NCBI GenBank assembly: GCA_947570215.1
Contig: CANOTO010000002.1
Coordinates: forward strand, 124,001-188,000
DNA: 64,000 bases
Source of the DNA: an uncultured Clostridia bacterium
GTDB taxonomy: Bacteria; Bacillota; Clostridia; Christensenellales; CAG-314
Direction of reading: 5' to 3'
The notes beneath the pieces are model-generated. The model was not told where the DNA came from and searched no databases. It saw nothing but the letters and a program-made list of their open reading frames with translations. Each line of letters begins with the position of its first letter. The stretch's first letter is position 1. Shown here one piece after another: positions 3,185 through 17,560 of this stretch. A program made the position numbers and the translations under genes.

Positions 3185-4993
3185 TTATTTATCGTTCGTA
3201 ACGTTTTTCAGGCGTTTTTTGCGTTTGAGAAATATTACGAGCAACGTCGCTGTCAGAGCAACTGCAAACGCTAACAGGGACAGTCCTACTATGGCGTTGG
3301 TGGTTATGTTGTGAACGCCTATCAGTCTGTCCGTAGCTATCCAGCCGAAGTCGCGCGTACCGTCGGATCTTTGGCGCATAATGAAAGACGCGCCGTCTTC
3401 TTCGCTTATTACGGTTACGCGGTCTCCCGAATACAATTTGATTAGATTCTCATGTTCGTCGTATACAACGTCGGTTTCCGCCATTCCTTTGTCGGCGTAT
3501 AACGTCACGGCTTCGAACAGCGTAGAATTTATTTTTCTGTCGCCTAACGGTACGATGTCTTCCGTTGTGGGCTTCACGCGAAAGTTCCCAAGCGCCGCGC
3601 GCTCTACAAACCCGCGCTGTCCTTCGTCATATTCAACCCAGTACCATTCGTACGTGCTATCGGCGGTAGTCTCGGTAAAGCGTTTAAGCAGCTTAACCTC
3701 CTTCATCGAAGAAGCCGTCTGCGTAAATGTGGTTTTCGGGCTGTCGTAGTAGGGCAGCTGTCTTACCGTAACTGCTCTTAGCGAATTGAATTTTGTAACG
3801 TATCCTACCTGACCGTTATCCAACTTCAAGTCGGCAATCTGCAGCTTCGTGTCTGTTTCTACCGTCGCCGTAACTTGGCTCTTTTTTACCCAGCCGAATT
3901 TACCGCCCGTTAAAACGTAGTAATAGCCGCTGTTCTCGTCCCCTTCGTAGCCCAATACGATATATTCGTCGGCGTGGTCTATAAGCTCGGGTACGCTCGT
4001 TTGCTCCTTGGTTTTGTAAACTATATTGGTGGGGTAGCCCTTGGATTTTACCAACGTAAAGCTCGTATATTCCGTCGGGACGTTTTTGCTTACCACGTCG
4101 CTGCCTATGGTAGCGTCGGCGTAAACGTACGTTTCGTTTTCCGCGCTTTTGGCAAATATGTCTATTTTATGGTCGCCGTTCAGCAAAAACAGCTTGTCTC
4201 CCGCCGAAGCAGCGTCCGATATCGTTTTGTCGTAATTCAATATAAGCGGAATAAGCGCATATTTTACGCCGCTTTTGCTGACTGCGTAAACGTTGTGGTC
4301 GTCGTACAAAACTATGTTGTCGTTAACAAGGGTTATACCTTTGGGCGTCAGCCCCGCAAGCTCTAAATTGTTTTCGAAATTTTCGTCGTCGCCGAAGATG
4401 ACGTAACTGAAACGCTTGCAGTTGCGTCCGTACAGGTAGTACAGATAATCCCCCGAGAATACGCAGCCCTTGGTATCCGTTAATTTGTTAATGTTGGCAA
4501 ATTGCTGAAATTTTGCGCCGTCGTATCTCAGCATTTGAGTAGCGGTGTAAACGTACAGCGTGTTTTCGGGAGACGTGCCGACGTTTTTGCCGTAAGCCGC
4601 GTCTACAATACTTTCGGTAAAGCCTTCGTCGTACGTATGGCTTACGGTAAGCGCCGTTCCGCTTGTAATCGTCAATTCGGTAATGCCGTTTCTTTTTACG
4701 GCGTACAGCAGATCGGTTCCGTTATCGGACAGGTTCGTAACGGTACCGTCCAATTCGTACGTTCCCGCCTGCGTCGGCGTTTCGCGCGATATGTCGAATA
4801 TAAGTATAGCGCATTTGTTTTCTTCCACGTTATCCGCCACGTACAAATAATTTCCCACAATCGTCATAGCAGTCGGATTGACGAAGTGTACCGTTTCTTC
4901 GTCTGCCGATACGGCGTACGCAGTATACGTCGCTCCCGCCAAGCAGGATACTGCTATAGTCAAACATAATATAATGCCGAATACTTTCTTCAT
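3185..4993 (-). CDS. Exported, membrane-anchored protein with SH3-like modules
   Basis: 602 residues. A signal peptide covers about residues 1-27 (ending near TAYA), a beta-rich region to about 290 has recurring short strands such as NYLYVADN and TLYVYTATQMLRYDG that recall a propeller, and about 330-560 holds SH3-type modules (YYYVLTGGKFGWVKKSQ; YEWYWVEYDEGQRGFVERA). A single membrane helix at about 567-588 precedes a KRKKRLK stop-transfer tail. The protein should thus face outside, held by its C-terminus. The gene at 6078-6833 encodes a shorter relative with the same layout, so the two likely share a wall-related job. Function is unknown; SH3 modules in exported proteins often bind peptidoglycan. 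Confidence 0.75.
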   Translation of the reverse strand: MKKVFGIILCLTIAVSCLAGATYTAYAVSADEETVHFVNPTAMTIVGNYLYVADNVEENKCAILIFDISRETPTQAGTYELDGTVTNLSDNGTDLLYAVKRNGITELTITSGTALTVSHTYDEGFTESIVDAAYGKNVGTSPENTLYVYTATQMLRYDGAKFQQFANINKLTDTKGCVFSGDYLYYLYGRNCKRFSYVIFGDDENFENNLELAGLTPKGITLVNDNIVLYDDHNVYAVSKSGVKYALIPLILNYDKTISDAASAGDKLFLLNGDHKIDIFAKSAENETYVYADATIGSDVVSKNVPTEYTSFTLVKSKGYPTNIVYKTKEQTSVPELIDHADEYIVLGYEGDENSGYYYVLTGGKFGWVKKSQVTATVETDTKLQIADLKLDNGQVGYVTKFNSLRAVTVRQLPYYDSPKTTFTQTASSMKEVKLLKRFTETTADSTYEWYWVEYDEGQRGFVERAALGNFRVKPTTEDIVPLGDRKINSTLFEAVTLYADKGMAETDVVYDEHENLIKLYSGDRVTVISEEDGASFIMRQRSDGTRDFGWIATDRLIGVHNITTNAIVGLSLLAFAVALTATLLVIFLKRKKRLKNVTNDK

Positions 4994-5507: not shown

Positions 5508-5516
5508 TGCTATAAT
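5508..5516 (+). promoter_or_regulatory. Extended -10 element of the small regulator gene
   Basis: TGCTATAAT at 5508-5516 is a consensus extended -10. Upstream at 5483-5498 lies TGACA, six bases, TGTCA, a small inverted repeat overlapping the -35 position, where no good -35 hexamer exists. The predicted start near 5523 falls inside the palindrome array at 5523-5547. Confidence 0.6.
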
Positions 5517-5522
5517 GATGGC

Positions 5523-5547
5523 GTTCTAAAATAGAACAAACGTTCTA
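5523..5547. promoter_or_regulatory. Three-half-site palindromic operator, SOS-box-like
   Basis: The sequence reads GTTCTA, AAA, TAGAAC, AAAC, GTTCTA. Each neighbouring pair of half-sites forms a perfect 6-bp inverted repeat, with spacers of 3 and 4 bases. The second pair contains GAAC-AAAC-GTTC, which fits the core of the Gram-positive LexA (DinR) box, GAACRNRYGTTC, though the outer bases C and G of the full box are A and T here. Position over the predicted transcription start suggests repression. LexA binding is inference. Confidence 0.55.
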
Positions 5548-5577: not shown

Positions 5578-6027
5578 ATGAATCACGAATTGATAATGTT
5601 GCGCGGAGCAAACAGAATGAAATATTGCGCTGTAAGCGTTTCGCAGGAAATTATGAACATAGCGTTAACGTCCTATTCTACTCTAAACTACAAGGGCGGA
5701 ACGTTAGGGCAAGTGGAAGCGATAAGCAAGCGTGCGGAAACGCGCGACAGATGCCTTCTGTTTTATAACGCGCTTATGCGGGGGCTGCGCAGCATACCCA
5801 AGGGCAACCGAGCGTTGCTTGTTGCAATTTATCTCAAAAACGCCGACAAGCGCGGACTGTGCGCCAAATATAACGCTTCCGTTTCTACGCTGTACCGCAA
5901 GCTTACGGCTTCGCGGATAATGCTAAGGTCCGCTTTGGACGCGCTGGGCTACGGCGAGCAGTGGTTTGACGACAATTTCGGTTGCTTCGAGTGGATATCG
6001 GCAATGCGCAAAACGGCGTATTGTTAA
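5578..6027 (+). CDS. Small sigma-region-4-like / RinA-ArpU-like regulator candidate
   Basis: 149 residues, started at ATG 5578 behind a perfect AGGAGGTGA. I do not recognise a named family with certainty. The C-terminal third, residues about 95-140 (GLCAKYNASVSTLYRKLTAS), reads as a helix-turn-helix of the sigma region 4 kind, preceded by a basic stretch KGNRALLVAIYLKNADKR. Phage late-gene activators of the RinA/ArpU group have this size, this C-terminal HTH and a place just before the terminase genes; here the terminase begins 1 kb downstream with one opposite-strand gene between. Its promoter carries a palindrome array. Role as activator of the capsid cassette is inference; it could equally regulate the flanking envelope genes. 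Confidence 0.55.
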   Translation: MNHELIMLRGANRMKYCAVSVSQEIMNIALTSYSTLNYKGGTLGQVEAISKRAETRDRCLLFYNALMRGLRSIPKGNRALLVAIYLKNADKRGLCAKYNASVSTLYRKLTASRIMLRSALDALGYGEQWFDDNFGCFEWISAMRKTAYC

Positions 6028-6077: not shown

Positions 6078-6833
6078 TTATATATCCTGGTCAAACACAT
6101 TTTTTTTGAGATTGCCTGGCAAAAACAGCGCAAGGGTAAGTCCCACCGCAAGCAGCACGACAAATACTATAAGCAGTATTTCCGCGGTGGGCGTCAAACC
6201 GTCGTTTTTCTCCGACGGTTTCTCGCTCCCGTCGGGTTTGTCGGGGTTAAATGTCGGAGGGTCTTTGACTATAGGCGTAGGGTGAAGCTCTATCTGCGGC
6301 GGCGAAGCTTTGGTTTTTTCGACGTAGCCGAACCGTCCGCCTGCGTAGACGTAGTACCAAGTAGTTCCGTAGGAGTTAATTTTGCCGTAGTAATTAAGCT
6401 TTTGTCCGTTTACTGCGACAATCACGTTTTCGGCGGAAGGCAGGGGCAGCAGCTTCAACGGCGCGGAATCTTCCGTCACCGTCAGCTGAACGGCAGGGTA
6501 TATGGGCGATAGCGGCGGAATTTCGCAGGCTTCCGTTTCGATGCGTCTTACGTATCCGCAAATAGTAGGAAAGTCGTCGTTATTGTTTATTACGGAAACG
6601 AACAGCGTGTTGTCTTGTTCGGAAATAATCTTGACGTAGTAGGACTTTTCCAACGTAAACATAACTCTTTCAAGCGATTCGTCAGTGTACAGGTTAACGT
6701 TGTTTTTTACAATGCGCGCCCAAGGACAATCCGTTTCGGCGTAAACGCCGTCGGTTGGGTAAAAACAGGCTATTAACGCTATCGCGTAAATTATCGATAA
6801 TGCTTTTAACAATCCGTTTCGGCGTTTGGTCAT
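6078..6833 (-). CDS. Exported SH3-like protein with C-terminal membrane anchor
   Basis: 251 residues. A signal peptide spans about 1-31 (ALIACFYPTDGVYA), an SH3-like segment about 40-175 ends with TWYYVYAGGRFGYVEKTK, then a Pro/Lys/Asp-rich linker, and a membrane helix at about 217-238 before a short tail. The layout and the Tyr-Tyr-Val ... Gly-Gly-Arg/Lys-Phe-Gly motif match the C-terminal half of the 602-residue protein at 3185-4993, so the two are likely paralogs. It is convergent with the small regulator gene and divergent from the terminase gene, with about 180 nt between. Unknown function, presumably wall binding. Confidence 0.7.
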   Translation of the reverse strand: MTKRRNGLLKALSIIYAIALIACFYPTDGVYAETDCPWARIVKNNVNLYTDESLERVMFTLEKSYYVKIISEQDNTLFVSVINNNDDFPTICGYVRRIETEACEIPPLSPIYPAVQLTVTEDSAPLKLLPLPSAENVIVAVNGQKLNYYGKINSYGTTWYYVYAGGRFGYVEKTKASPPQIELHPTPIVKDPPTFNPDKPDGSEKPSEKNDGLTPTAEILLIVFVVLLAVGLTLALFLPGNLKKNVFDQDI

Positions 6834-7015
6834 TGTTCACACTCCTTATTTCGTATACTCGCAATTATACCGCAACGGTAAAAGCGTATTTTGCCGAGTT
6901 ATGTCTTGTTGTCGCGCATATAGTCGCCATTGAGTTCGCTCTCCCAAGGCTTCGAAGCAGCGTTTGTAACAGTTCTGACCACCGAAAACAATACCAAGCC
7001 TAAGAAGGAATTACA

Positions 7016-8431
7016 ATGAAAGAAATATTACGGCAAATTCAACTGATCGAGCGCGAAGAAGACCGCCGTCGGAGTTCGCCCCTTGCTCGATATAATAAAA
7101 GCAAGATTCACGCCAAGCAAATGGCTTTTCACAAGTGTCTCAAACGCAACCGCTGGGTGTTCGGCGGCAACCGCAGCGGCAAGACGGAGTGCGGCGCGGT
7201 GGAAACGGTGTGGCTTGCGCGGGGAATCCATCCGTACCGTCCCAACAAGCCGTCCGTCAGCTGTTGGGTGGTGTCGGTATCACAGCAGGTTCAGCGCGAA
7301 GTCGCTCAGCAAAAAATACTGTATTATCTTGACAAAAGCTGGATATCCGACGTCGTAATGTCGTCAGGCTCCAAGGGCAGTCCCGACTATGGCGTAATCG
7401 ACTGCATAATCGTAAAAAACGTATTCGGAGGAACAAGCAAAATCGGCTTTAAGAGCTGCGAAGCAGGCCGAGACAAGTTTCAAGGCGCGAGCTTGGACTT
7501 TGTGTGGTTCGACGAAGAGCCGCCCAAGGACGTTTACGACGAGTGCAAAATGCGCGTGCTCGACCGTCGCGGACACATTTTCGGCACAATGACTCCGCTT
7601 AAAGGTCTCACGTGGGTGTACGACGAAATCTATCTAAATTCCTACAATTCCAAGGAAGTATGGTACGAATTTATGGAGTGGGCGGACAATCCCTATCTTT
7701 CTGCCGACGAAGCTGCGGAAATGTCGCGCTCTATGTCCGACGATATGCTTCAAAGCCGACGCTTCGGCAGGTTTACCGCAGGGCAGGGGCTTGTGTATAC
7801 GGAGTTCGGCGAAGCCAACGTAATCGACCCCTTTCTTCCTCCCGCCGATTGGCAGGATACCTTGTCTATTGATCCGGGGCTCAGCAATCCGCTGTCCTGT
7901 CATTGGTATTGCCGAGACTACGACGGTAACGTATACGTCGTGGCGGAGCATTACGAAGCCAACCGCGACGTGTGTTATCATGCCGCCGCAATCAAACGGA
8001 TATCGGACGAGCTTTGCTGGAAGCGCGACAAACTCGGACGTATCGAAGCGCTTATCGACAGTGCTGCCAATCAACGCACTCTCGGCGGAGTCAAGAGCGT
8101 CGCGGAGCTGTTTGCCGACAACGGTATTTCCGTTAATACGCGAGTGGACAAGGGAGTATACGCGGGCGTAAACAGGGTCAAGGCTCTGTTAAAGCCCGCC
8201 GAAGGTAAACCCAAGTTGTACGTATTCAGCTGCTGCGTCAATATGATTAGGGAATTCAAGGGCTACTTTTGGGGCAATAACGACGCGCCGGTCAAACGCG
8301 ACGACCACGCGATGGACGAGCTTCGCTACTACGTGTCCGACCTTGTCGCCAAGACTGATAAGCCCGTAAAAACGTGGGTACAGCAGGATAAGGAAAGGCT
8401 ATACCGTACCTTGAAGCGGGGCAGACTATGA
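7016..8431 (+). CDS. terL: Phage terminase large subunit (TerL)
   Basis: 471 residues, ATG behind AAGGA. The ATPase half shows Walker A GGNRSGKT at 50-57, Walker B with VWFDEEPP (Asp166, Glu167) and the coupling motif GTMTPLKG near 190. The nuclease half is RNase H-like with Asp286 (LSIDPGLS), Asp348 (EALIDSAAN) and the KRDDHAMDELRYYV motif with Asp430 and Asp434. All catalytic residues for DNA packaging and cutting appear present. TerL docks on the portal, pumps DNA into the prohead and cuts the concatemer. The Gly-Asn-Arg-Ser-Gly-Lys-Thr loop is of the kind seen in podovirus-like and phBC6A51-like terminases. First gene of the cassette and overlapping the next by ATGA. Confidence 0.93.
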   Translation: MKEILRQIQLIEREEDRRRSSPLARYNKSKIHAKQMAFHKCLKRNRWVFGGNRSGKTECGAVETVWLARGIHPYRPNKPSVSCWVVSVSQQVQREVAQQKILYYLDKSWISDVVMSSGSKGSPDYGVIDCIIVKNVFGGTSKIGFKSCEAGRDKFQGASLDFVWFDEEPPKDVYDECKMRVLDRRGHIFGTMTPLKGLTWVYDEIYLNSYNSKEVWYEFMEWADNPYLSADEAAEMSRSMSDDMLQSRRFGRFTAGQGLVYTEFGEANVIDPFLPPADWQDTLSIDPGLSNPLSCHWYCRDYDGNVYVVAEHYEANRDVCYHAAAIKRISDELCWKRDKLGRIEALIDSAANQRTLGGVKSVAELFADNGISVNTRVDKGVYAGVNRVKALLKPAEGKPKLYVFSCCVNMIREFKGYFWGNNDAPVKRDDHAMDELRYYVSDLVAKTDKPVKTWVQQDKERLYRTLKRGRL

Positions 8432-8715
8432 AAACGGCGGATTACAAAACCCTGCTCGTATCTGTTTTACTCAAAAAAGCCAAGGGGTATTTATACCGCG
8501 AAAAGACGGACGAATACAACGTCGTAGACGGTAAAAAACAGCTTGTAAAAAGCAAGGTGGTAACCAAACGTATGCAGCCGGACGTGTCCGCCGTCAAGCT
8601 TCTGCTGCAATTGGACGTCGGCTGCGACGTGTCAGAGCTGTCGGACGAGCAGCTCCGCGCGGAGAAGCTGCGACTTATCGCCTTGCTCGACGACGGCGAA
8701 CAACAACAAGAATAG
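8428..8715 (+). CDS. Small terminase-like protein
   Basis: 95 residues, starting inside the terL stop (ATGA overlap), so translationally coupled. The stretch LKKAKGYLYREKTDEYNVVD followed by VVTKRMQPDVSAVKLLL resembles the C-terminal segment of small terminase subunits of the phBC6A51 group, where a helix, a charged beta hairpin and a K-x-x-P-P-D-x-x-A motif recur. The N-terminal DNA-binding HTH of those proteins is missing, so it would be a trimmed form. Position after rather than before terL is also unusual. Assignment is inference from motif pattern; a generic phage hypothetical protein is the alternative. Confidence 0.5.
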   Translation: MKTADYKTLLVSVLLKKAKGYLYREKTDEYNVVDGKKQLVKSKVVTKRMQPDVSAVKLLLQLDVGCDVSELSDEQLRAEKLRLIALLDDGEQQQE

Positions 8716-8760
8716 CCGCGCAGACGAATCTTGCGCGGCGGATAAAGGAGAATTAAACTT

Positions 8761-8994
8761 ATGCTTTATACTACTGAAACCAAAACCAAGTGCGACGTAA
8801 AAAACTGCAAAAACGCCGCCGACTATTACTTCGAAGTCAAGGGACGCGCGGGCAAATGCTTTCTTTGCGGGCAATGCTTCGACGCTCTCGTCTCCGACGC
8901 GTTAAAAAAGCGCGCGCCGAAAAGCCCCGTAAATTCCATTCGCAAACAAATGAGCAAAAAGGAAAAGGAGAACGCCTATGTCGAAAAACAGTAA
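8761..8994 (+). CDS. Small zinc-finger protein in capsid cassette
   Basis: 77 residues behind AAAGGAG. Cysteines in CDVKNC and CFLCGQC make a likely four-cysteine zinc site across residues 11-40; the remainder is basic (ALKKRAPK, MSKKEKEN). Small zinc proteins of this kind are common between terminase and portal genes in phages and in clostridial genomes generally, and none is well characterised to my knowledge. Its end overlaps the portal start by 17 nt. It may bind DNA or regulate packaging, but the sequence alone does not tell. Confidence 0.6.
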   Translation: MLYTTETKTKCDVKNCKNAADYYFEVKGRAGKCFLCGQCFDALVSDALKKRAPKSPVNSIRKQMSKKEKENAYVEKQ

Positions 8995-10804
8995 AAAAGC
9001 CGTCGCTCCCGATAATTCGCGCGTATTTGCGGAAGACGCGGTTGCTGATATAAAACGGGACTTTGCCGCGCGGCAAAAGGCGCGCCGCCCCTACGAGCTC
9101 AATTGGCAGCTCAATATGAACTTTGTAATGGGCAATCAGTATTGCCAAGTATCTCCGCGCGGGGCGATAGAGCAGGAAGACAAGTATTACTTCTGGCAGG
9201 AAAAGCAGGTGTACAATCACATTGCTCCCATTGTGGAAACGCGTCTCGCCCGCTTAAATCGGGTTCGTCCGCGCCCGATAGTGCGTCCCTTTACGAACAG
9301 CGATCAAGATGTCAACGCCGCCAAGCTTACTACCAAGATACTCAATGCTTCGCGGGATAAGAACCGTTTGGACGACGTAGTTACCCGTGCTACGGCTTGG
9401 AGCGAAACGTGCGGCACGGCGTTTTACAAGGTAAGCTGGAACGCCGACAAGGACGACGCCGAAGTGTCGGTTTGCTCGCCCTTCGAGATATACCCCGACA
9501 GCAACGTAACGGCAACAGTGGACGAGTGCGCGTCCGTCATACACGCCAAGGTGTATTCCGCGCAGGAAGTAAACGATTTATGGAACGTAAACGTCAAGGG
9601 CGAGAGCATCAAGGTGTTTGCCTGCGGCGACGGCAGCGCGCAGGTGTGCGGGTTAGGGTACAGCTCGTCATATCCGTCCGTCGCGCAGGAAGAGAAGAGC
9701 GATCAAGTGCTGGTAATAGAACGCTATACCAAGCCTACCAAGCGTTATCCCAACGGGCGTTTGGAGATAGTGGCTTCCGACATTCTGCTGTATGCAGGCG
9801 ACCTTCCGTACGTCTTGGGTGAAGACGGCGAACGCCGTTATCCCTTCGTTCGTCAAACGTCAATCGAACAGGCGGGCTGCTTTTGGGGAGCGAGCGTAGT
9901 GGACAGGGTAATTCCCGTTCAGCGCGCATACAACGCCGTCAAAAACCGCAAGCACGAGTTTCTCAACCGATTGGCAATGGGCGTTTTGACTGTCGAAAAC
10001 GGATCGGTAGATACTGACAGCTTGGAAGAAGAAGGGCTGTCTCCCGGTAAAATCTTAGTTTACCGTCAGGGCGCGGAAAAACCCGCTCTTATGGATTCGG
10101 GCAGAGTTCCGTCGGATTTCGCCGACGAAGAAACCAAGCTGCTCGGCGAATTCGTAACCGTTTCCGGCGTTTCGGAGTTTGCGCGCAACAGCAGTACGCC
10201 TACGACGGTAACCAGCGGCGTGGCCTTGCAGCTTATCGCCGAGCAGGACGATATACGGCTTGCCAACAGCATAGACAGCGTGCGCTGCTGCATCAAGACT
10301 ATAGCCAAGTATATTCTGCGGCTGTACAAGCAGTATGTTACGCGCGCCAAGCTGTACCGCATAACCGACGGTCAAAACGGCGCGGAGGTGTTCTACTTCA
10401 ACGGCAGCGACGTAGGTTCCGACGATGTGGTTTTCGAAACGGAAAACGAGCTTTCCGATACCCCTGCAACCCGCAGAACAATGCTGTTCGACCTGTTGAA
10501 GGCGGGGGTTTTGACGGATAGGGACGGACGGCTGTCGCAAAGCGCCAAGGCTAAGATTTTGACTCTTATGGGCTTCGGCAATTGGGACAATGCTCAAGAC
10601 GTTGCGGCTCTGCATATTGCCCGCGCGGAAAAGGAGAATCTCGATATCCTTACCGCTCGGGTTATGCCGATAGACGATCACGAGCTGCACGTTACGGAGC
10701 ATACCCGTTATCTGCTTGCCAACGACGGCTTATCCGAGTCTGTCCGCGACGGAATTGTCGAGCACGTTCGAGAACACAAAAACTACGTAAAGGAGAATAT
10801 TTGA
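8978..10804 (+). CDS. Phage portal protein
   Basis: 608 residues with AAGGAG 7 nt before the ATG. The pattern QKARRPYELNWQLNMNFVMGNQY near residue 33, VYNHIAPIVETRLARL, NASRDKNRLDDVVTRATAWS with an Asp-Pro-like FEIYPDS, then NAVKNRKHEFLNR and TSGVALQLIAEQDD matches portal proteins of podovirus/P22-type phages. The portal dodecamer sits at one capsid vertex, nucleates assembly with scaffold and forms the DNA channel used by TerL. Length is in the range for this class (550-720). No frameshift seen. It is followed 4 nt later by the scaffold-like gene. Confidence 0.88.
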   Translation: MSKNSKKAVAPDNSRVFAEDAVADIKRDFAARQKARRPYELNWQLNMNFVMGNQYCQVSPRGAIEQEDKYYFWQEKQVYNHIAPIVETRLARLNRVRPRPIVRPFTNSDQDVNAAKLTTKILNASRDKNRLDDVVTRATAWSETCGTAFYKVSWNADKDDAEVSVCSPFEIYPDSNVTATVDECASVIHAKVYSAQEVNDLWNVNVKGESIKVFACGDGSAQVCGLGYSSSYPSVAQEEKSDQVLVIERYTKPTKRYPNGRLEIVASDILLYAGDLPYVLGEDGERRYPFVRQTSIEQAGCFWGASVVDRVIPVQRAYNAVKNRKHEFLNRLAMGVLTVENGSVDTDSLEEEGLSPGKILVYRQGAEKPALMDSGRVPSDFADEETKLLGEFVTVSGVSEFARNSSTPTTVTSGVALQLIAEQDDIRLANSIDSVRCCIKTIAKYILRLYKQYVTRAKLYRITDGQNGAEVFYFNGSDVGSDDVVFETENELSDTPATRRTMLFDLLKAGVLTDRDGRLSQSAKAKILTLMGFGNWDNAQDVAALHIARAEKENLDILTARVMPIDDHELHVTEHTRYLLANDGLSESVRDGIVEHVREHKNYVKENI

Positions 10805-10808
10805 AGCA

Positions 10809-11255
10809 ATGCAATACGGCAAATTCAATTCGGCGGAAGAGCTGCTCAAAGGCTATGAAGAACTGGAAAAAAGCTTCACGCAAAAGTGTCAGCGGCTTTC
10901 CGCTTTGGAAAAACAATACGGCGGTACAAACGCGGACGACGCGTCACCGCAAACGGACGCAAAGGCAGAGCAATCTGCAGTAACGGGATCGAATACAGTC
11001 CCCGCGCAAGCGAAGTCCGACGTAACGCTTGCCGATTCGCCGCCCGTCTCTGCCCAAACCGTCTCGGCGGAACAGTCTGCGCAATACCCCGCAGGTCTAA
11101 ACGAACAGGCTTGCCCGCTGCAAGACGACGGTAACCGCCGCATCATATACGCGCCCAAGGTTATGACCGCGGGCGGGAACGTCTCTATGGCGCTGCCAAA
11201 CCGCCCTAAGACGATTAAGGAAGCGTCGGAATTGGCAAAACAATACTTTAAGTAA
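10809..11255 (+). CDS. Scaffold-like capsid assembly protein
   Basis: 148 residues. The N-terminus FNSAEELLKGYEELEKSFTQK is the helical motif seen at the start of many phage scaffolding proteins, followed by a Gln/Ala/Ser/Asp-rich disordered middle (residues about 40-105) and a basic C-terminal end (RPKTIKEASELAKQYFK) that could bind the capsid protein, as scaffold tails do. It is shorter than usual scaffolds (200-350). It lies where a scaffold is expected, directly before the major capsid gene. No protease domain is fused or adjacent, so scaffold would leave intact, as in P22. The SD AAGGAG lies 13 nt from the ATG, rather far. Confidence 0.65.
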   Translation: MQYGKFNSAEELLKGYEELEKSFTQKCQRLSALEKQYGGTNADDASPQTDAKAEQSAVTGSNTVPAQAKSDVTLADSPPVSAQTVSAEQSAQYPAGLNEQACPLQDDGNRRIIYAPKVMTAGGNVSMALPNRPKTIKEASELAKQYFK

Positions 11256-11273
11256 AGGAGAATCAACACAATT

Positions 11274-12440
11274 ATGGTAACACTTGCAAGCGCGGATAAC
11301 GCGCTTAAAACACTCTATCTCGGCGTAGTGGCGGATCAGCTCAACACGTCCGTAAATCCGCTGTTTAACAAAATTCAACAAACCACCTCCGACGTATGGG
11401 GCAAGGAGATTCGCAAGCTTGCGCCCTTCGGAATAAACGGCGGTATTGGCGCAGGTACGGAGGACGGCGCGCTGCCCGCTTCCGCAAGCAACAACTACGC
11501 GCAGTTCGTATTAACTCTCAAAAACCTGTACGGAACAATCGAAATATCCGACAAGGCCATCCGCGCAAGCGCCGATAACAGCGGCGCGTTCGTCAATCTT
11601 CTCGAAGCGGAAATGGAAGGTCTGCTCAAAGCTTCCCGTTTCAACTTCGGACGTATGCTTTTCGGCGACGGCTCGGGCGTTATCGCCAAGGCGGTTTCCA
11701 ACACAGGCAACGTAATAACCGTCGACAACGTACGCAATCTCATTGAAGGTATGGTGGTGGACGTCCTTAGTTCCGCGTCCGATTCGCCGATAGTTTCCTG
11801 CCGCCGCATAACGGAAGTGGATCGAGCAAACAACAAGATAACGCTTAGCGGCGCGGCCCTTTCGGCTTCCGCGGTATCCGAAGGCGACAAAATAACGGTT
11901 CAGGGCAGCTACGGCAACGAGCTCACCGGTCTCAAAGCAATCTTCGGCGACTCTGAAACTCTTTACGGGCTTAACCGCTCTCAAAACAAGTGGCTCACCC
12001 CTTACAAAAAGACGGCCGCTGCTGTCACCGACGTAGTAATACAGCGTGCTATCGACGAATTGGACGAAGTCGCCGGCTCGACCGCGGACTTTATCGTGTG
12101 CTCCGGCGGGGTCAAGCGCGCCTATCAGGATTACCTTATCACCAACCGCACCAACATAGACGTTATGAATCTGCAAGGCGGATACAAAGCCATTTCCTAC
12201 AACGGCATACCCCTTGTTTCGGACAGATTCGCCCCTAAGGGTACGATGTACATTCTCAACACGTCCGATTTCAAACTTCACCAGCTGTGCGATTGGCGTT
12301 GGCTCGAAGGCGACGACGGACGGGTAATCAAGCAGGTTGCCAACAGACCTACGTATACCGCTACGCTGGTCAAGTACGCCGATCTCATCTGCGACAGACC
12401 CATCGGTCAAGCTATGATAAGCGGTATTGCCGAAGTCTAA
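11274..12440 (+). CDS. Major capsid protein
   Basis: 388 residues. The protein is rich in small residues and shows the build of an HK97-fold major capsid protein: an N-terminal arm, an E-loop-like stretch around 40-75 (GAGTEDGALPASASNNYAQF), a long spine-helix region ISDKAIRASADNSGAFVNLLE, a beta-rich insert around 145-205 and a P-domain/A-domain end with VAGSTADFIVCSGGVKRAYQDYL and a late RPTYTATLVKYADLICDRP. It resembles SU10- and N4-type capsid proteins that mature without proteolysis. It would form the shell around the portal. Two strong GC-rich hairpins follow its stop and may set its expression above the genes after it. Confidence 0.82.
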   Translation: MVTLASADNALKTLYLGVVADQLNTSVNPLFNKIQQTTSDVWGKEIRKLAPFGINGGIGAGTEDGALPASASNNYAQFVLTLKNLYGTIEISDKAIRASADNSGAFVNLLEAEMEGLLKASRFNFGRMLFGDGSGVIAKAVSNTGNVITVDNVRNLIEGMVVDVLSSASDSPIVSCRRITEVDRANNKITLSGAALSASAVSEGDKITVQGSYGNELTGLKAIFGDSETLYGLNRSQNKWLTPYKKTAAAVTDVVIQRAIDELDEVAGSTADFIVCSGGVKRAYQDYLITNRTNIDVMNLQGGYKAISYNGIPLVSDRFAPKGTMYILNTSDFKLHQLCDWRWLEGDDGRVIKQVANRPTYTATLVKYADLICDRPIGQAMISGIAEV

Positions 12441-12468
12441 GTTCGCGCGCTTATATAAAACCGCACGC

Positions 12469-12523
12469 AAGCGGACGCGTCGTCTCCGCTTGAACATAAC
12501 GCCGCGCCGCTTGTCGGCGCGGC
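12469..12523 (+). terminator. Twin hairpins after the capsid gene (attenuator or mRNA shield)
   Basis: Hairpin one is AAGCGGA, nine bases, TCCGCTT (12469-12491). Hairpin two is GCCGCGCCG, five bases, CGGCGCGGC (12501-12523). No T run follows, so full termination is unlikely; they more likely slow 3' decay or lower readthrough so that capsid protein is made in excess. Confidence 0.6.
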
Positions 12524-12537
12524 TCTGTCAAATTATT

Positions 12538-12885
12538 ATGAAACCGAATTTAATACCTATAACAAACGATTTATTCGACATTGCCGCGCGTTTACGCACC
12601 GTCAACGACGGCTATCGCGTATACTATAACGTTGCGCGCAGCCGTTTCGAAGTGTACGACGAATCGCGCGTTACGCCTACGTTGGCTTTCGTGTCGCCGT
12701 ACGACGAGCTGGACTGCCGAACGGTAGATTACGCGGTGTATTCCCGCGTGGAAAACGCCGACGTCGTACTGTCCGACGTGGAACGCAGCAACGCCGCAGT
12801 CGAACACAGTTTGGAGCATGAAGCTCTGAATAATTTAGAAAAATACGAAAAAAGGAGATTTTATGAAGGTACTGGACGTTATTAA
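12538..12885 (+). CDS. Phage hypothetical protein between capsid and connector genes
   Basis: 115 residues from ATG 12538. The open frame extends back to a TTG inside the capsid gene, but that stretch covers the two hairpins and is arginine-rich non-coding-looking sequence, so the inner ATG is preferred even though no clear Shine-Dalgarno is seen. Residues 20-65 (YRVYYNVARSRFEVYDESR) look beta-rich, and the C-terminal half is acidic and helical (VERSNAAVEHSLEHEALNNLEKYEK). I do not recognise the family; its place suggests a head decoration or connector accessory protein. Its end overlaps the next gene by 23 nt. Confidence 0.6.
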   Translation: MKPNLIPITNDLFDIAARLRTVNDGYRVYYNVARSRFEVYDESRVTPTLAFVSPYDELDCRTVDYAVYSRVENADVVLSDVERSNAAVEHSLEHEALNNLEKYEKRRFYEGTGRY

Positions 12886-13411
12886 CGCCTGTAATAAAAT
12901 ATTAGAGCTCGACATCGCCGTTGACGATATCGCAAACGGCAGTGCGGAGCCCTGCGACAAAACAAACCGAATCATCGACTGCTGCAACACAATTTCGGAG
13001 GAATTGTACCGCGATTATCCCACGCATTGCCGCAGGACGGTCGCGGAAGCGGATTTAGAAGGCTTTATTCCCACTTCGCAGTACAGTCTGTGCCGAGTGC
13101 TGTCGCTGTGCGACGGCGAAGGCTCAGCAGTACCGTATCGGTATACGCAGGGCGGTCTGCTTGTAGGCAAAAGCGGCAAATACAACCTTACATACGCCAA
13201 GCTGCCTCGAATCGTAGGTCTGCGCGACGAATTGGAAATGCCGTCTCCGCGCATTACCGACCGCATTTTCGTGTACGGCGTTTTGCGCGAGTACACGCTG
13301 CAAACAGGCGATTTCACATCGTCCGCTGTGTGGGCGGACAAGTACGACGCGGCTTTGAACGTCGCCGTAAAGCAGGCGTCGGCGGTTATGCCGGCAAGGA
13401 GATGGCTATGA
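12863..13411 (+). CDS. Putative head-completion (adaptor) protein
   Basis: 182 residues with AAGGAG 5 nt before ATG. N-terminal helices (VLDVINACNKILELDIAVDD) and the pattern INRC-like CCNTISEELYRDYPT, with a central beta part and a helical end YAALNV-like (KYDAALNVAVKQAS), resemble the all-helical-plus-beta head-tail connector or adaptor class found after capsid genes in podovirus-like phages. These form a ring under the portal that seals packaged DNA. Sequence recognition is weak; the assignment rests mainly on position and size. Overlaps the following gene by ATGA, so the two are translationally coupled. Confidence 0.5.
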   Translation: MKVLDVINACNKILELDIAVDDIANGSAEPCDKTNRIIDCCNTISEELYRDYPTHCRRTVAEADLEGFIPTSQYSLCRVLSLCDGEGSAVPYRYTQGGLLVGKSGKYNLTYAKLPRIVGLRDELEMPSPRITDRIFVYGVLREYTLQTGDFTSSAVWADKYDAALNVAVKQASAVMPARRWL

Positions 13412-14652
13412 CACCGTCCAAACGCGGCGTGCTTCGCTACAAGTTCGATTTTGCGTTGGACTGCGCTTCGGCGGATATTGCGGACTGCGCTTCCGTCGAG
13501 GTGACGGGCGGCGCTTTGCGCGCATTGCCGAGCTTTACGCGTATGTCCACGCGAAGCGCCTATCAAGGCATTTTCGGACGTCTCGGCGATAAGCTTTATC
13601 TGCACAGCAACAACAAGGTGTACACCTACGACGGCGCCTTGCAGGAGATTGCCACCGTAAGCAAAGGTATAGGCAAGCCCTGTTCTACGGAATACCGCGG
13701 CAAAATTATAACGAGTATCAAGTCGTTCGGTACGTGCGTTATGCAGGGGTCGGACTTTACGCGTGTAACTCAGGACGCGTACGACGACTTGACCGTTGCG
13801 GGCGAACGCGTATTTGCTTTGCGCGGCGGCACCGTGTATTTCGGCGAAGTCGGCGAACACAGCGTCAGCGACTCATGCGAGTACGCAGAGCTTCCTGCGC
13901 AGTGCAATGCTATCGTGACTCTCGGCGATTCGGCGTACGCATTGGGGAATACGTGCTGTAAGCTCACTCCGTCGGCGGATTACAACGGTTTCCAAGTGTC
14001 CGTGGCGGCTCGCGGAATAGGCGAAGTACAGCGCGGCAGCGCGGCTGTTTTGGGTAACCGCGTCGTATTCGCGGCTTCCGACGGTCTGTATTGCCTTGAC
14101 GGCGGCAGGGTAAAGCGCATATTTAACAAGATGAGCCGCAATATCGATTTTACCGACTGCTTTGCAAGCGTTTACCGCGGCGGGTACCTGCTCAGCCTGC
14201 CCGCGACCGCTAACCGTCCGACGTTGCTGTTGGATATCGACGAGGAGAAGTGTCTATGCGTATACGCCGCAAATATTTCTCAGACTCAGGTATACCGCGG
14301 CAAAATTTCGGCGGTATTCGCAAACGGACTTTTCAAGGGAGAAACGGGCGTTGCCGCGGAATACAACGACGAAATGCGTTATAAGCTCTCGAACGTAGAT
14401 TTCGGAGTTAACGGAGTAAAGCATCTGCGCAGCCTTCTGATAAAAACCGACGCCCCCGTCGATTTGTATTTGTCGTCGGAATCGGAAACACGCCTTACGC
14501 GCGTCAATGGCAAAACCCGCGTTCAGCGTATTCCGCTTTACGGCAGCGGACGCAGGTTTTCCGTGCATATCAAGGCCGAGGGCAACGCGCGCATAGAGTA
14601 CTTGGAATTGGCGGCGGAAACGTTTAAGGAGAAGAATTATGGCGATAAGTAG
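13408..14652 (+). CDS. Phage protein, beta-propeller-like, probably head-completion or injection structure
   Basis: 414 residues. ATG 13408 is chosen because AAGGAG ends 6 nt before it and it overlaps the previous stop by ATGA; an ATG at 13402 abuts the SD. Repeated short units such as GRLGDKLYLHSNNKVYTYDG, GERVFALRGGTVYFGEVGE, LGDSAYALGNTCCKLTPS and GNRVVFAASDGLYCLDGG recur about every 45-50 residues over positions 50-240, a blade-like pattern. A C-terminal beta region of about 170 residues follows. In podovirus-like particles, ring-forming stabilisation or tail-hub proteins hold this place. No closer identity is claimed. Overlaps the next gene by 14 nt. Confidence 0.55.
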   Translation: MTPSKRGVLRYKFDFALDCASADIADCASVEVTGGALRALPSFTRMSTRSAYQGIFGRLGDKLYLHSNNKVYTYDGALQEIATVSKGIGKPCSTEYRGKIITSIKSFGTCVMQGSDFTRVTQDAYDDLTVAGERVFALRGGTVYFGEVGEHSVSDSCEYAELPAQCNAIVTLGDSAYALGNTCCKLTPSADYNGFQVSVAARGIGEVQRGSAAVLGNRVVFAASDGLYCLDGGRVKRIFNKMSRNIDFTDCFASVYRGGYLLSLPATANRPTLLLDIDEEKCLCVYAANISQTQVYRGKISAVFANGLFKGETGVAAEYNDEMRYKLSNVDFGVNGVKHLRSLLIKTDAPVDLYLSSESETRLTRVNGKTRVQRIPLYGSGRRFSVHIKAEGNARIEYLELAAETFKEKNYGDK

Positions 14653-15565
14653 CGCGCGAATGAAGGAACTGATTGCAAAGTACGACGTAATCAAGGGCAA
14701 GGTGGAAGATATAGACCGCAAGTACAGTCTCGACTACCGCGAGCCTTTGCTAAATATGCCGGAAAGTCTCGGACTCACCAAGCTGCAATACGTCCCCAAG
14801 ACGGAAGAGCAGCTTCGCGCGGCGGCGGAAGAGCGTATTGCGGCGAGCTATATTGCAAAGCAAAGTCGGTTGGATTCGTCCTACACTGTAAATTTGCAAA
14901 AGCTTGCCAAAAGGTACTCCGAGTTAGACGCCGACCTGCGCGCCAAGCTTAACAAGCTGTTAAAGGATTACAACGAAACGTGCGACAAGCTGTACGTGCG
15001 CTTGGTGGACAACGGTTTGCGCTTTTCCAGTATTCTAACCCGAGCAAGCAATCAGGCGCGGGACGACTACAATAAGGCCGTTGCGGAGCAAAATGCCGCA
15101 GCGCAGGGCGAGCGAAGCTTAATCGACTCGGACAAACAGTCGCAAGAATCGGTTTATTCGGACGCGTGCGCGTCGCTCGAAGAAGAAAAGCAGACCAAGC
15201 TAAACGAAACGTATGCCAAGCTTGTGCGGGACGAAAGCAAGACAAGGCAAAATATAGACAAGTACAACGCCAAATTGGACGAAAAGGAAGCCAAGTATCA
15301 AGCTTCGCGCGCAAGGGCGTACGAGTACGCGCGTCAGGCGGAGTACGACCGCTCCTTTACGGCGGCTAAACTGTACGCTCAATTGGGCGCTACCGGGTAT
15401 GCCGAAAAAATGCAGTGGGAGAAGTATCGGGTTTTTCAGCAGGGTTTCGTATCATTGCTTAAAGAAGAAGCGTTGGCTCTCGTCAATATGGATACATTCG
15501 CCCGCGGACACTTGCAGGATTACTATACGACCCTTATAGACTGGATTAACAGAAATCTGCAGTAA
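14639..15565 (+). CDS. Long coiled-coil protein ending the capsid cassette
   Basis: 308 residues, with AAGGAG shortly upstream inside the previous gene. Residues about 60-260 are almost entirely charged helical heptads rich in Lys, Glu, Ala, Tyr and Arg with no glycine or proline runs, that is a long coiled coil; the N-terminal 40 residues and the last 50 (FARGHLQDYYTTLIDWINRN) are different and may be capping or binding ends. It could be an internal core/ejection protein, a needle, or a tape-like fragment; length of helix (about 200 residues, near 30 nm) is too short for most tail tapes. Last gene of the cassette, followed by a hairpin terminator. Confidence 0.6.
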   Translation: MAISSARMKELIAKYDVIKGKVEDIDRKYSLDYREPLLNMPESLGLTKLQYVPKTEEQLRAAAEERIAASYIAKQSRLDSSYTVNLQKLAKRYSELDADLRAKLNKLLKDYNETCDKLYVRLVDNGLRFSSILTRASNQARDDYNKAVAEQNAAAQGERSLIDSDKQSQESVYSDACASLEEEKQTKLNETYAKLVRDESKTRQNIDKYNAKLDEKEAKYQASRARAYEYARQAEYDRSFTAAKLYAQLGATGYAEKMQWEKYRVFQQGFVSLLKEEALALVNMDTFARGHLQDYYTTLIDWINRNLQ

Positions 15566-15745: not shown

Positions 15746-16567
15746 ATGCGTTATCAAAGCAAATCTTCAATAGCGTATATGTTCCGCAATTTCTGGCAGT
15801 TGATTTTAGTAGCGTTGCCGGTGTCGCTTTCTTTCGCATTTTTTATGACTCCCGACGCCGAAATAAACTTCGTCCGCGCTCTTATCGACGGAGAACTGAA
15901 CGGCGGCAATCTTCTCACGCGTTATATTTCCGCCGTGACCGTGCTTCGTTACGGAAAGTATTGGTGGACGGCGGTTATCAACGTCGTGTTGTTCGCTTTG
16001 ACGGTAAGTGTGCTCGTAGTCAAGATAGACCGTCATATGCGCGTAGGCGAAATTTCCGCGCTGCCGTTGAAGTCGGCGTTTAAGCTGTTTCCCGTAACGC
16101 TGCTGTTGACCCTGTGCTGCGTGGCGACGGTGGAAGTGCTTGCGCTTCTAAGCGTAGGAGTTATGATGCTGCTGCGTTTCGCCGATAACGTGACGGTAGT
16201 GGCTTGCGTAAGCTTAGCCGTGTCGGTAGTCGTTCGTTTAATAGAAACTTGGCTGTTTATGCTGTTATTGCCGGCGTTTCCGCTGAAATACAGCGAGCAT
16301 TACCCGCTCAATGTCGCCTTTTCTTATTCCGCGCGTATAATGTCTAAGCATAAAAGGATTACATGGGGTATAAGCTTCGCGTTCGTATTCGCGCGTATGG
16401 CAATCGTATTGTTGGGGGCATTGCTTGCTCCGTACCGTTTGGACGTGCCGTTGTATTGCTTGGCGTACGTCTTTGTAATCGCGTATATTCCTTGTCTTGC
16501 ATACAAGCTGTACTACGACGAAGTCGGAGGCGAGCGCCGCGACGTTCGCGAAATTATTTTCCGTTGA
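15746..16567 (+). CDS. Polytopic membrane protein of unknown function
   Basis: 273 residues from ATG 15746. An upstream in-frame ATG at 15626 lies inside the cassette terminator and before the promoter, so it is excluded. Six or so hydrophobic segments are visible, for example LILVALPVSLSFAFFM near 15-30, AVINVVLFALTVSVLVV near 80, VTLLLTLCCVATVEVLALLS and WGISFAFVFARMAIVLLGALL. It is paired with the next gene, 15 nt downstream, which has the same size class and topology; the two are probably distant relatives or partners. I do not recognise a family; a membrane remodelling or DUF624-like (YesL) relation is possible but unproven. Confidence 0.65.
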   Translation: MRYQSKSSIAYMFRNFWQLILVALPVSLSFAFFMTPDAEINFVRALIDGELNGGNLLTRYISAVTVLRYGKYWWTAVINVVLFALTVSVLVVKIDRHMRVGEISALPLKSAFKLFPVTLLLTLCCVATVEVLALLSVGVMMLLRFADNVTVVACVSLAVSVVVRLIETWLFMLLLPAFPLKYSEHYPLNVAFSYSARIMSKHKRITWGISFAFVFARMAIVLLGALLAPYRLDVPLYCLAYVFVIAYIPCLAYKLYYDEVGGERRDVREIIFR

Positions 16568-16582
16568 TAGGGGGATTAGGAG

Positions 16583-17560
16583 ATGATTAAACCGCTCAGT
16601 CTTGCTTCCTTCAATTGGAAAGTACTGTTAAAATCCTTATTCTGCCAAGTGTTGGTATTGGCTATCGTTATGGCGTTCGGCGTTACGGTATTCGGCGACC
16701 TTGCGCGCGACGTAATGCGCGTATTGGGCGAGAGCAATCTGCGCGAATTCGCAAATTCTACAATAGCGTCTATTATGAACGGCACGTTTAACAGCGCCGA
16801 TTTTACCGCGCAGTTAAACGCCGTAATATCCAACGTGCAGGAGAATATCAAATCTATTCATTATCCTTTCGCTTGGGGCGGCGCAACGTTGTCTTATATA
16901 GTAGTAATATTAACGCTTCTCGTCTATCGGCTGTTCGTGTCCTACACCGACGTTACGGTCGAATGTCAGTTGGAAGAATTTATGACGTCCAACGCAAGCC
17001 GTCCGTTTATATGGTTCTTGCTTAAAAAGCAGGGTCGGACTTGGGCGTTTTCCGCATTGCAGCTGTTGTGTACCGTGCCGTTGGATTTACTGATACTAAC
17101 AGGCTGTTTGGGTCTGTATCTCACGTTTTTGATAGCCTTCGGCTGGTGGACGATAATACCCGTGCTAATTATCGCGCTGGTTTTATATGCGGCAAGACAA
17201 ACGGTGTTCGCGTTCTGTCTGCCTGCGGTGGTGTGCGAAGATATGTCCGCAAGACAAGCCTTCAAGTACGGCGCAAGTCGGATCGTTTTCCGCTTTTGGA
17301 GCGTATTTTGGAAGACGCTTATTGTAATCGGCTCTATGACGGCGATTTCTGCCGCCGCGCTTGTGTGCATTTCCAACCCGGTGTGGTGTACCGTGGTAAT
17401 AACTATCCCCAATCTGCTGTTGTTTTTCTATCTCAAATGCGTCAACATAGTGGAATACTTCAATGCGCACAACCGTCCGTATTTCTACAAGCGTGTGGTT
17501 ATCGAAGGTACGGACAGATACAACAAACGCCTTGCAAAAAAACAGCGTAAAACCAAATAA
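16583..17560 (+). CDS. Polytopic membrane protein, partner of the preceding gene
   Basis: 325 residues, ATG preceded by GGGGGA at a 7-nt spacing. It shows about six membrane segments (LFCQVLVLAIVMAFGVTVFG, ATLSYIVVILTLLVYRLFV, LLDLLILTGCLGLYLTFL-like region, IIPVLIIALVLYAARQTVFAF) and a basic C-terminal tail ending in KKQRKTK. A long soluble stretch at about 50-95 probably lies outside. The motif DMSARQAFKYGASR is the sort of amphipathic loop found in YesL/GlpM-like clostridial membrane proteins with a central repeated four-helix unit. No named function. Followed by a strong terminator. Confidence 0.65.
   Translation: MIKPLSLASFNWKVLLKSLFCQVLVLAIVMAFGVTVFGDLARDVMRVLGESNLREFANSTIASIMNGTFNSADFTAQLNAVISNVQENIKSIHYPFAWGGATLSYIVVILTLLVYRLFVSYTDVTVECQLEEFMTSNASRPFIWFLLKKQGRTWAFSALQLLCTVPLDLLILTGCLGLYLTFLIAFGWWTIIPVLIIALVLYAARQTVFAFCLPAVVCEDMSARQAFKYGASRIVFRFWSVFWKTLIVIGSMTAISAAALVCISNPVWCTVVITIPNLLLFFYLKCVNIVEYFNAHNRPYFYKRVVIEGTDRYNKRLAKKQRKTK

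Follow-up and report, generated by a model that had tools for sequence, protein, structure and literature searches.

The ten-gene cassette at positions 7016–15565 of the window (the whole stretch of DNA analyzed here, 64,000 nucleotides) is best explained as an element of podoviral origin, domesticated and passed on vertically, that functions like a gene transfer agent (GTA), a reading to which we give a probability of roughly 0.78. We infer that carriers make virus-like particles filled with the bacterium's own DNA; none has been seen. Whether this is an ancient, order-wide, LexA-switched podovirus-type GTA, explaining the packaging found in Christensenellaceae and moving host DNA among uncultured Clostridia after DNA damage, is to our judgment an evenly balanced question. 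The element is retained across much of a Clostridia order common in animal guts, and it supplies a candidate gene set for the packaging observed in Christensenellaceae viromes.

Gene Content

All ten frames of the cassette are open and run in one direction (table 1). An earlier note on this DNA had described intact genes, a large terminase (TerL) with all catalytic residues, host-like codon use, no tRNA at the edges, and no genes for integration or replication, and each of these statements holds. Across 78 homologous proteins TerL shows no variation in its Walker A lysine, Walker B acids, or nuclease aspartates, K56, D166, E167, D286, and D348 being found in 78/78 and D434 in 77/77, with one protein incomplete there. 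Codon use correlates at 0.97 with that of the other window genes, at a distance of 0.34, where length-matched random gene sets average 0.40; no tRNA occurs anywhere in the window; and no integration or replication genes were found among the cassette genes or their conserved neighbors, the only genes scanned. The GTA criterion of phage-derived head, packaging, and tail genes is met, as is that of an element without replication or integration genes of its own, the rest of the genome lying outside the scan. No small terminase (TerS) could be identified with confidence, the match of gene 2 being weak, and alignments of genes 6, 8, and 9, run as profiles against the PDB, found no clear sequence match. 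The boundaries proposed in the earlier note are right for the ten genes but too narrow for the unit, as u5 and u6 are also co-conserved with the cassette and accompany terL even in relatives with a split set.

Table 1. Features of the cassette and of the region upstream of terL (positions in the window).
Feature	Coordinates	Strand	Basis
Extended -10 TGCTATAAT before u5	5508..5516	+	Read from sequence; predicted
LexA/SOS-type box GAACAAACGTTC	5534..5545	.	Sequence match; no binding data
u5, phage-late-regulator-like protein, sigma-70 region 4-like HTH	5578..6027	+	Family in 49 loci
u6, secreted/membrane protein with SH3_3 domain, divergent from terL	6078..6833	-	PF08239 2.7e-7; family in 63 loci
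ATTTTGCCGAGTTATGTCT, candidate operator/late promoter element	6888..6906	+	Conserved before terL
Gene 1, large terminase TerL	7016..8431	+	PF03237/PF17289
Gene 2, small conserved protein	8428..8715	+	Weak small-terminase-like match to phrog_309, E 0.0014; family in 64 loci
Gene 3, small conserved protein	8761..8994	+	Family in 32 loci
Gene 4, P22-type portal	8978..10804	+	PF16510 7.9e-23; phrog_156 5e-41
Gene 5, scaffold-like protein	10809..11255	+	Family in 82 loci, between portal and capsid; function inferred from position
Gene 6, major capsid protein (podoviral)	11274..12440	+	NF033394 capsid_maj_Podo 298 bits (NCBIfam cut-off 80 bits); phrog_14242 2.7e-72
Gene 7, small conserved head protein	12538..12885	+	Family in 62 loci; function inferred from position
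Gene 8, adaptor-like protein	12863..13411	+	Family in 73 loci; podoviral adaptor position
Gene 9, podoviral tail nozzle/hub (beta-propeller)	13402..14652	+	AlphaFold2 model and Foldseek
Gene 10, long coiled-coil protein (DUF7934), putative ejection/plug/tail-tip protein	14639..15565	+	PF25588 5e-15

The cassette had also been called tail-less, and this was not borne out. The AlphaFold2 model of gene 9, built from a 44-sequence alignment (pLDDT 92, pTM 0.90), finds its best Foldseek PDB matches among podoviral nozzles and hubs (Pa223, VP1, P22, GP4, T7, and SU10), with E values of 7e-18 to 2e-10 for the first five. Since this modeled nozzle fold is joined by gene 8 in the adaptor position, a short tail appears to be encoded and "tail-less" should be dropped. 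A few members of the gene 8 family weakly match phrog_2941 (1.6e-5) and the head-tail adaptor phrog_2377 (0.007). For gene 10 the model is helical (pLDDT 93), and its comparison with viral structures returned only coiled-coil noise, without an informative fold match. In three loci (L054, L061, and L070) an additional gene of 366–386 aa, possibly a variable tail fiber, lies between genes 9 and 10; family searches with the extra genes found at this position in sister genera gave no useful match. Genes 8–10 and u5 are fast-evolving, which fits host recognition yet weakens functional assignment.

The highest omega values of the set belong to genes 9 and 10 (0.40 and 0.29), and these are the genes that would face the target if the product were a PBSX-like or tailocin-like particle that packs host DNA and kills relatives without delivering any DNA. 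The same architecture would serve such a particle, and PMC12946183 raises the same doubt for the GTA of Faecalibacterium (FpGTA). We nonetheless consider a killing particle unlikely: the nuclease and motor of TerL, needless for a pure killing device, are invariant, and no killing domain was recognized. A domesticated nanocompartment for protein or RNA, or a secretion capsule, would agree with the long retention of the capsid gene but not with that of a portal, a nozzle, and a TerL with all its catalytic residues, and we find it scarcely credible. An encapsulin, that is, a capsid protein without portal and terminase, was rejected because the portal and a catalytically intact TerL are present.

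Distribution and Constraint

The genus of the host, within Clostridia, contains Candidatus Fimimonas merdipullorum (L033 = G007). For that genome (NCBI taxid 2840648) NCBI puts Candidatus Fimimonas in Myxococcota, and the related records L031 and L040 are titled Corallococcus; cassette, flanks, and relatives are Clostridial, and the Myxococcota placement looks like a name clash. In the window's genus the capsid gene is single-copy in all 25 of 25 genomes; it occurs in 9 of 12 genomes from other genera of the family, the three lacking it being only 76–82% complete. Among 297 genomes of the order that are at least 90% complete it was found in 180 (61 of 116 genera), nearly always as one copy and nearly always free of stops. 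It is dispensable, being absent from about 40% of the sampled order genomes. The relatives are mostly or wholly metagenome assemblies.

Order and strand of those cassette genes that are present do not vary among the bacterial loci examined (80/80). Throughout the family the place is fixed (PDA-ssb-...-rnj-OMT-U32), with polysaccharide deacetylase and ssb on one side and RNase J, methyltransferase, and U32 peptidase on the other; RNase J adjoins the cassette in some other families too (L076, L078, L083, and L194). The earlier note had proposed as checks a constant chromosomal place across species and a dN/dS below 1, and as refutation a contiguous prophage at this locus or frameshifts in relatives. 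The place is constant within the family, relatives hold no contiguous prophage at the locus, and frames are intact in the great majority of them; terL is short in L114 and broken in L069, where it lies in two frames (L069:5367-6850), either a rare broken copy or an assembly error. The module lacks the integrase, immunity, and lysis genes that would mark a temperate prophage: host genes flank the cassette across the family and only holins occur, in sister families alone.

Just nine loci come from a viral collection. IMG/VR lists the cassette-bearing contigs L111 and L112–L118 as viral genomes; as evidence for a virus these entries are poor, at least L111 being bacterial, with the host genes PDA and ssb beside the cassette. 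The nearest capsids of isolate phages are 23–33% identical. More distant matches in the class (L181–L188) resemble modules of phages or prophages, their portals being larger, and were set aside. One f66 genome carries, in addition to its conserved capsid copy, another module of phage-like character that comprises TerL, portal, and a gene of 1325 aa (L183 G206:C18; L189 G206:C20), and a tandem pair of capsid genes lies inside one cassette at L194 (G172:C2:8035-10370).

The cassette has descended with its host. Identity to the window genome in capsid and in ValRS is correlated (r=0.89, 36 genomes), and a tree of TerL, portal, and capsid has 10 of 22 splits in common with the ValRS tree, against a mean of 0.23 and a maximum of 4 for random labels; only two conflicts between cassette and ValRS are supported, both on shallow branches. 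Median omega is 0.09 for terL, 0.08 for the capsid gene, and 0.12 for the portal gene, compared with 0.09 for the host gene ssb and 0.13 for RNase J (rnj). These values are rough, as synonymous sites are near saturation; those of terL and capsid are nevertheless far below 1, so that the proposed check is passed. The GTA criterion of vertical inheritance with purifying selection is met. A prophage remnant, fixed long ago and decaying slowly, could be argued from the phage derivation of every gene, from the lack in the window's family (f1) of the holins found in sister families, and from the rare broken terL of L069. Yet constraint equals that of housekeeping genes, the cassette occurs in 61 genera with almost no stops, and sets that are split in small genomes are still intact; this reading is largely contradicted across the order and we regard it as very improbable. 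That the cassette is not a fresh decaying prophage, as the earlier note held, agrees with the constraint, the intact frames, the same place, and the absence of a contiguous prophage in relatives.

Separated Gene Sets

The strongest single argument for a host function comes from two families in which packaging and capsid genes lie apart and are intact. In genus g36 of family f26, with genomes of 0.8–1.2 Mb, the capsid locus consists of portal, scaffold, capsid, genes 7–9, and two holins, without terL, and a profile search recovered one intact TerL per g36 genome tested. The terL gene lies 39–104 kb from the capsid gene in six of these genomes (G150, G216, G099, G304, G318, and G334) and on a different contig in others, for example G428 and G638; in G670, from another f26 genus, the gap is 24 kb. 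The split terL of f26 keeps u5 upstream and, where u6 would be expected, has a divergently oriented gene for a secreted protein. A secreted protein of ~760–810 aa directly follows terL at four of five f26 loci (L276, L277, L279, and L280). In family f66, TerL and capsid gene are on different contigs in three genomes, and an exact or near LexA-type box precedes the separate terL. In both families terL and the capsid operon are each intact and single-copy despite their separation. Neither a prophage nor a satellite would behave in this way: a set so divided is unable to excise or travel as one, and all its parts are still intact; we therefore infer a host function. The GTA criterion of genes dispersed over host loci is met in these f26 and f66 relatives; for the window genome one locus is known. 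Split sets in small genomes offer a natural experiment on why such elements persist.

The same separation bears on a cfPICI-like element, a capsid-forming satellite dependent on a helper phage for its spread. Such a satellite would likewise carry genes for head and packaging while falling short of a full tail and lysis complement, but no integrase was found, the cassette does not move between loci of the family, its gene tree follows the host, and the set is split in f26 and f66, so that we find this reading barely tenable; a capsid-forming PICI was rejected on the grounds of absent integrase, fixed place, host-following tree, and split sets, attachment sites lying outside the scan. The earlier note had left open a retained gene transfer agent, a satellite, and a nanocompartment. 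The first of these remains; the other two fit badly, because of the missing integrase, the fixed place, the splitting in f26, the invariant nuclease and ATPase residues of TerL, and the presence of portal and nozzle.

Regulation, Release, and Proposed Mechanism

A candidate switch lies upstream of terL. Members of the u5 family stand upstream of the cassette and on its strand in all their loci, and weakly match phrog_36 (best 2.4e-5) and Sigma70_r4_2, the window member reaching only 0.048; those of u6 stand on the opposite strand. The palindrome GAACN4GTTC occurs within 300 bp upstream of 34 of 48 u5 homologs (shuffles: mean 0.13, maximum 2), and upstream of other cassette families in none or one case each; for u4, which has a common intergenic region with u5, the box was seen in 8 of 26 cases. 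In the window u4 (3185-4993) is a secreted SH3 protein on the opposite strand, separated from u5 by the region with the LexA-type box. The window's own genome has nine sites of GAACRNRYGTTC, one at u5 and one just before uvrB; lexA is present, with GAACAAACGTGC, one mismatch from the box, at its -10. LexA control of u5 is thus inferred from sequence evidence alone, without binding data. A second motif, WWTTTGCCGAGTTRTGTMK, lies 57–290 bp before terL in most loci of the genus, in the same direction, and in 8 of 13 genomes the cassette has the only exact copy of its core. This motif may be the site of u5 action, which is again an inference.

As to release, the earlier note's statement that lysis genes are lacking is correct for the window locus and does not extend to sister families, which carry holins right after gene 10, namely BhlA (PF10960, 6.7e-13) and phrog_297 (1.8e-9). 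A sample of 61 genomes included five with a phrog_297 holin, always adjacent to the capsid operon, and five with BhlA, which in four of these is adjacent to it as well. Neither holin, the only two families searched, was found in the window genome or in 36 sampled f1 relatives, and this search leaves the window's family without an identified release gene; since both are absent, this family has lost them or uses other genes. A search by operator motif found no second locus for tail fiber or lysis, and could have missed one, as the genome was searched and not read whole. Downstream of the cassette the family has two membrane proteins, d1 and d2 (15746-17560 in the window), which are inverted beside it in L070 and could be host genes or release factors.

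In the mechanism that we propose, DNA damage would inactivate LexA and free the regulator u5, which would act at the unique motif before terL to switch the cassette on. Small heads would assemble from scaffold, capsid, and portal, and TerL, with motor and nuclease intact, would fill them with host DNA by headful packaging. Genes 8–10 may then close the head with a short podoviral tail, and particles would leave by lysis, with holins of their own in sister families and a release gene located elsewhere, or of a different kind, in the window's family. LexA binding, action of u5 at the motif, the formation of particles, their filling with host DNA, delivery, and release are all inferred, without experimental data. 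The chain from LexA through u5 to one operator is a testable switch.

Comparison with Known Systems

Outside Alphaproteobacteria, to our knowledge, gene transfer agents have been recognized in very few cases. RcGTA and CcGTA of that class are siphovirus-like, whereas capsid, portal, and nozzle of the present element are podoviral. The likeness lies in vertical inheritance and long preservation (PMC10883770), in a dedicated activator, inferred here to be u5 and in those systems the direct activator GafA (PMC6363796), and in dispersed loci. Among isolate phages, the actinophages Shocker and Jasmine/Adat have the nearest capsids and the same order of TerL, two small genes, portal, and capsid; they differ in that these capsids are only 28–33% identical and their genomes are those of whole phages of ~45 kb. 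PBSX of Bacillus subtilis differs in its contractile tail and its complete late and lysis modules, and against the PBSX terminase model the TerL described here scores only 16 bits (cut-off 105), a distant match. The likeness lies in the packaging inferred here: PMC12946183 describes PBSX as a defective phage particle that packages ~13 kb of host DNA and is induced by mitomycin.

A literature search that left preprints and most subscription papers outside its scope found no account of the cassette. The closest known system is FpGTA of Faecalibacterium (Borodovich et al. 2026, PMC12946183), although homology has not been established; a 16S probe search for Faecalibacterium in the class sample gave no match. 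FpGTA was shown to have 40 nm capsids with 8.4–8.9 kb of host DNA, is near-ubiquitous in its Clostridia genus, and is presented in that paper as the first GTA of podovirus-like morphology; the same paper reports GTA-like packaging in Christensenellaceae too (HGM11616 and QANA01), the accessible text naming no gene cluster for it. The two elements are alike in having TerL, portal, scaffold, and capsid in one podovirus-like operon of about ten phage genes without replication genes. They differ in that retention is order-wide here, that the unit here includes an SH3 membrane protein and a regulator preceded by a LexA-type box, and that the holins of sister families lie in the same cluster, whereas FpGTA keeps its holin and endolysin, with a tail fiber, in a second operon.
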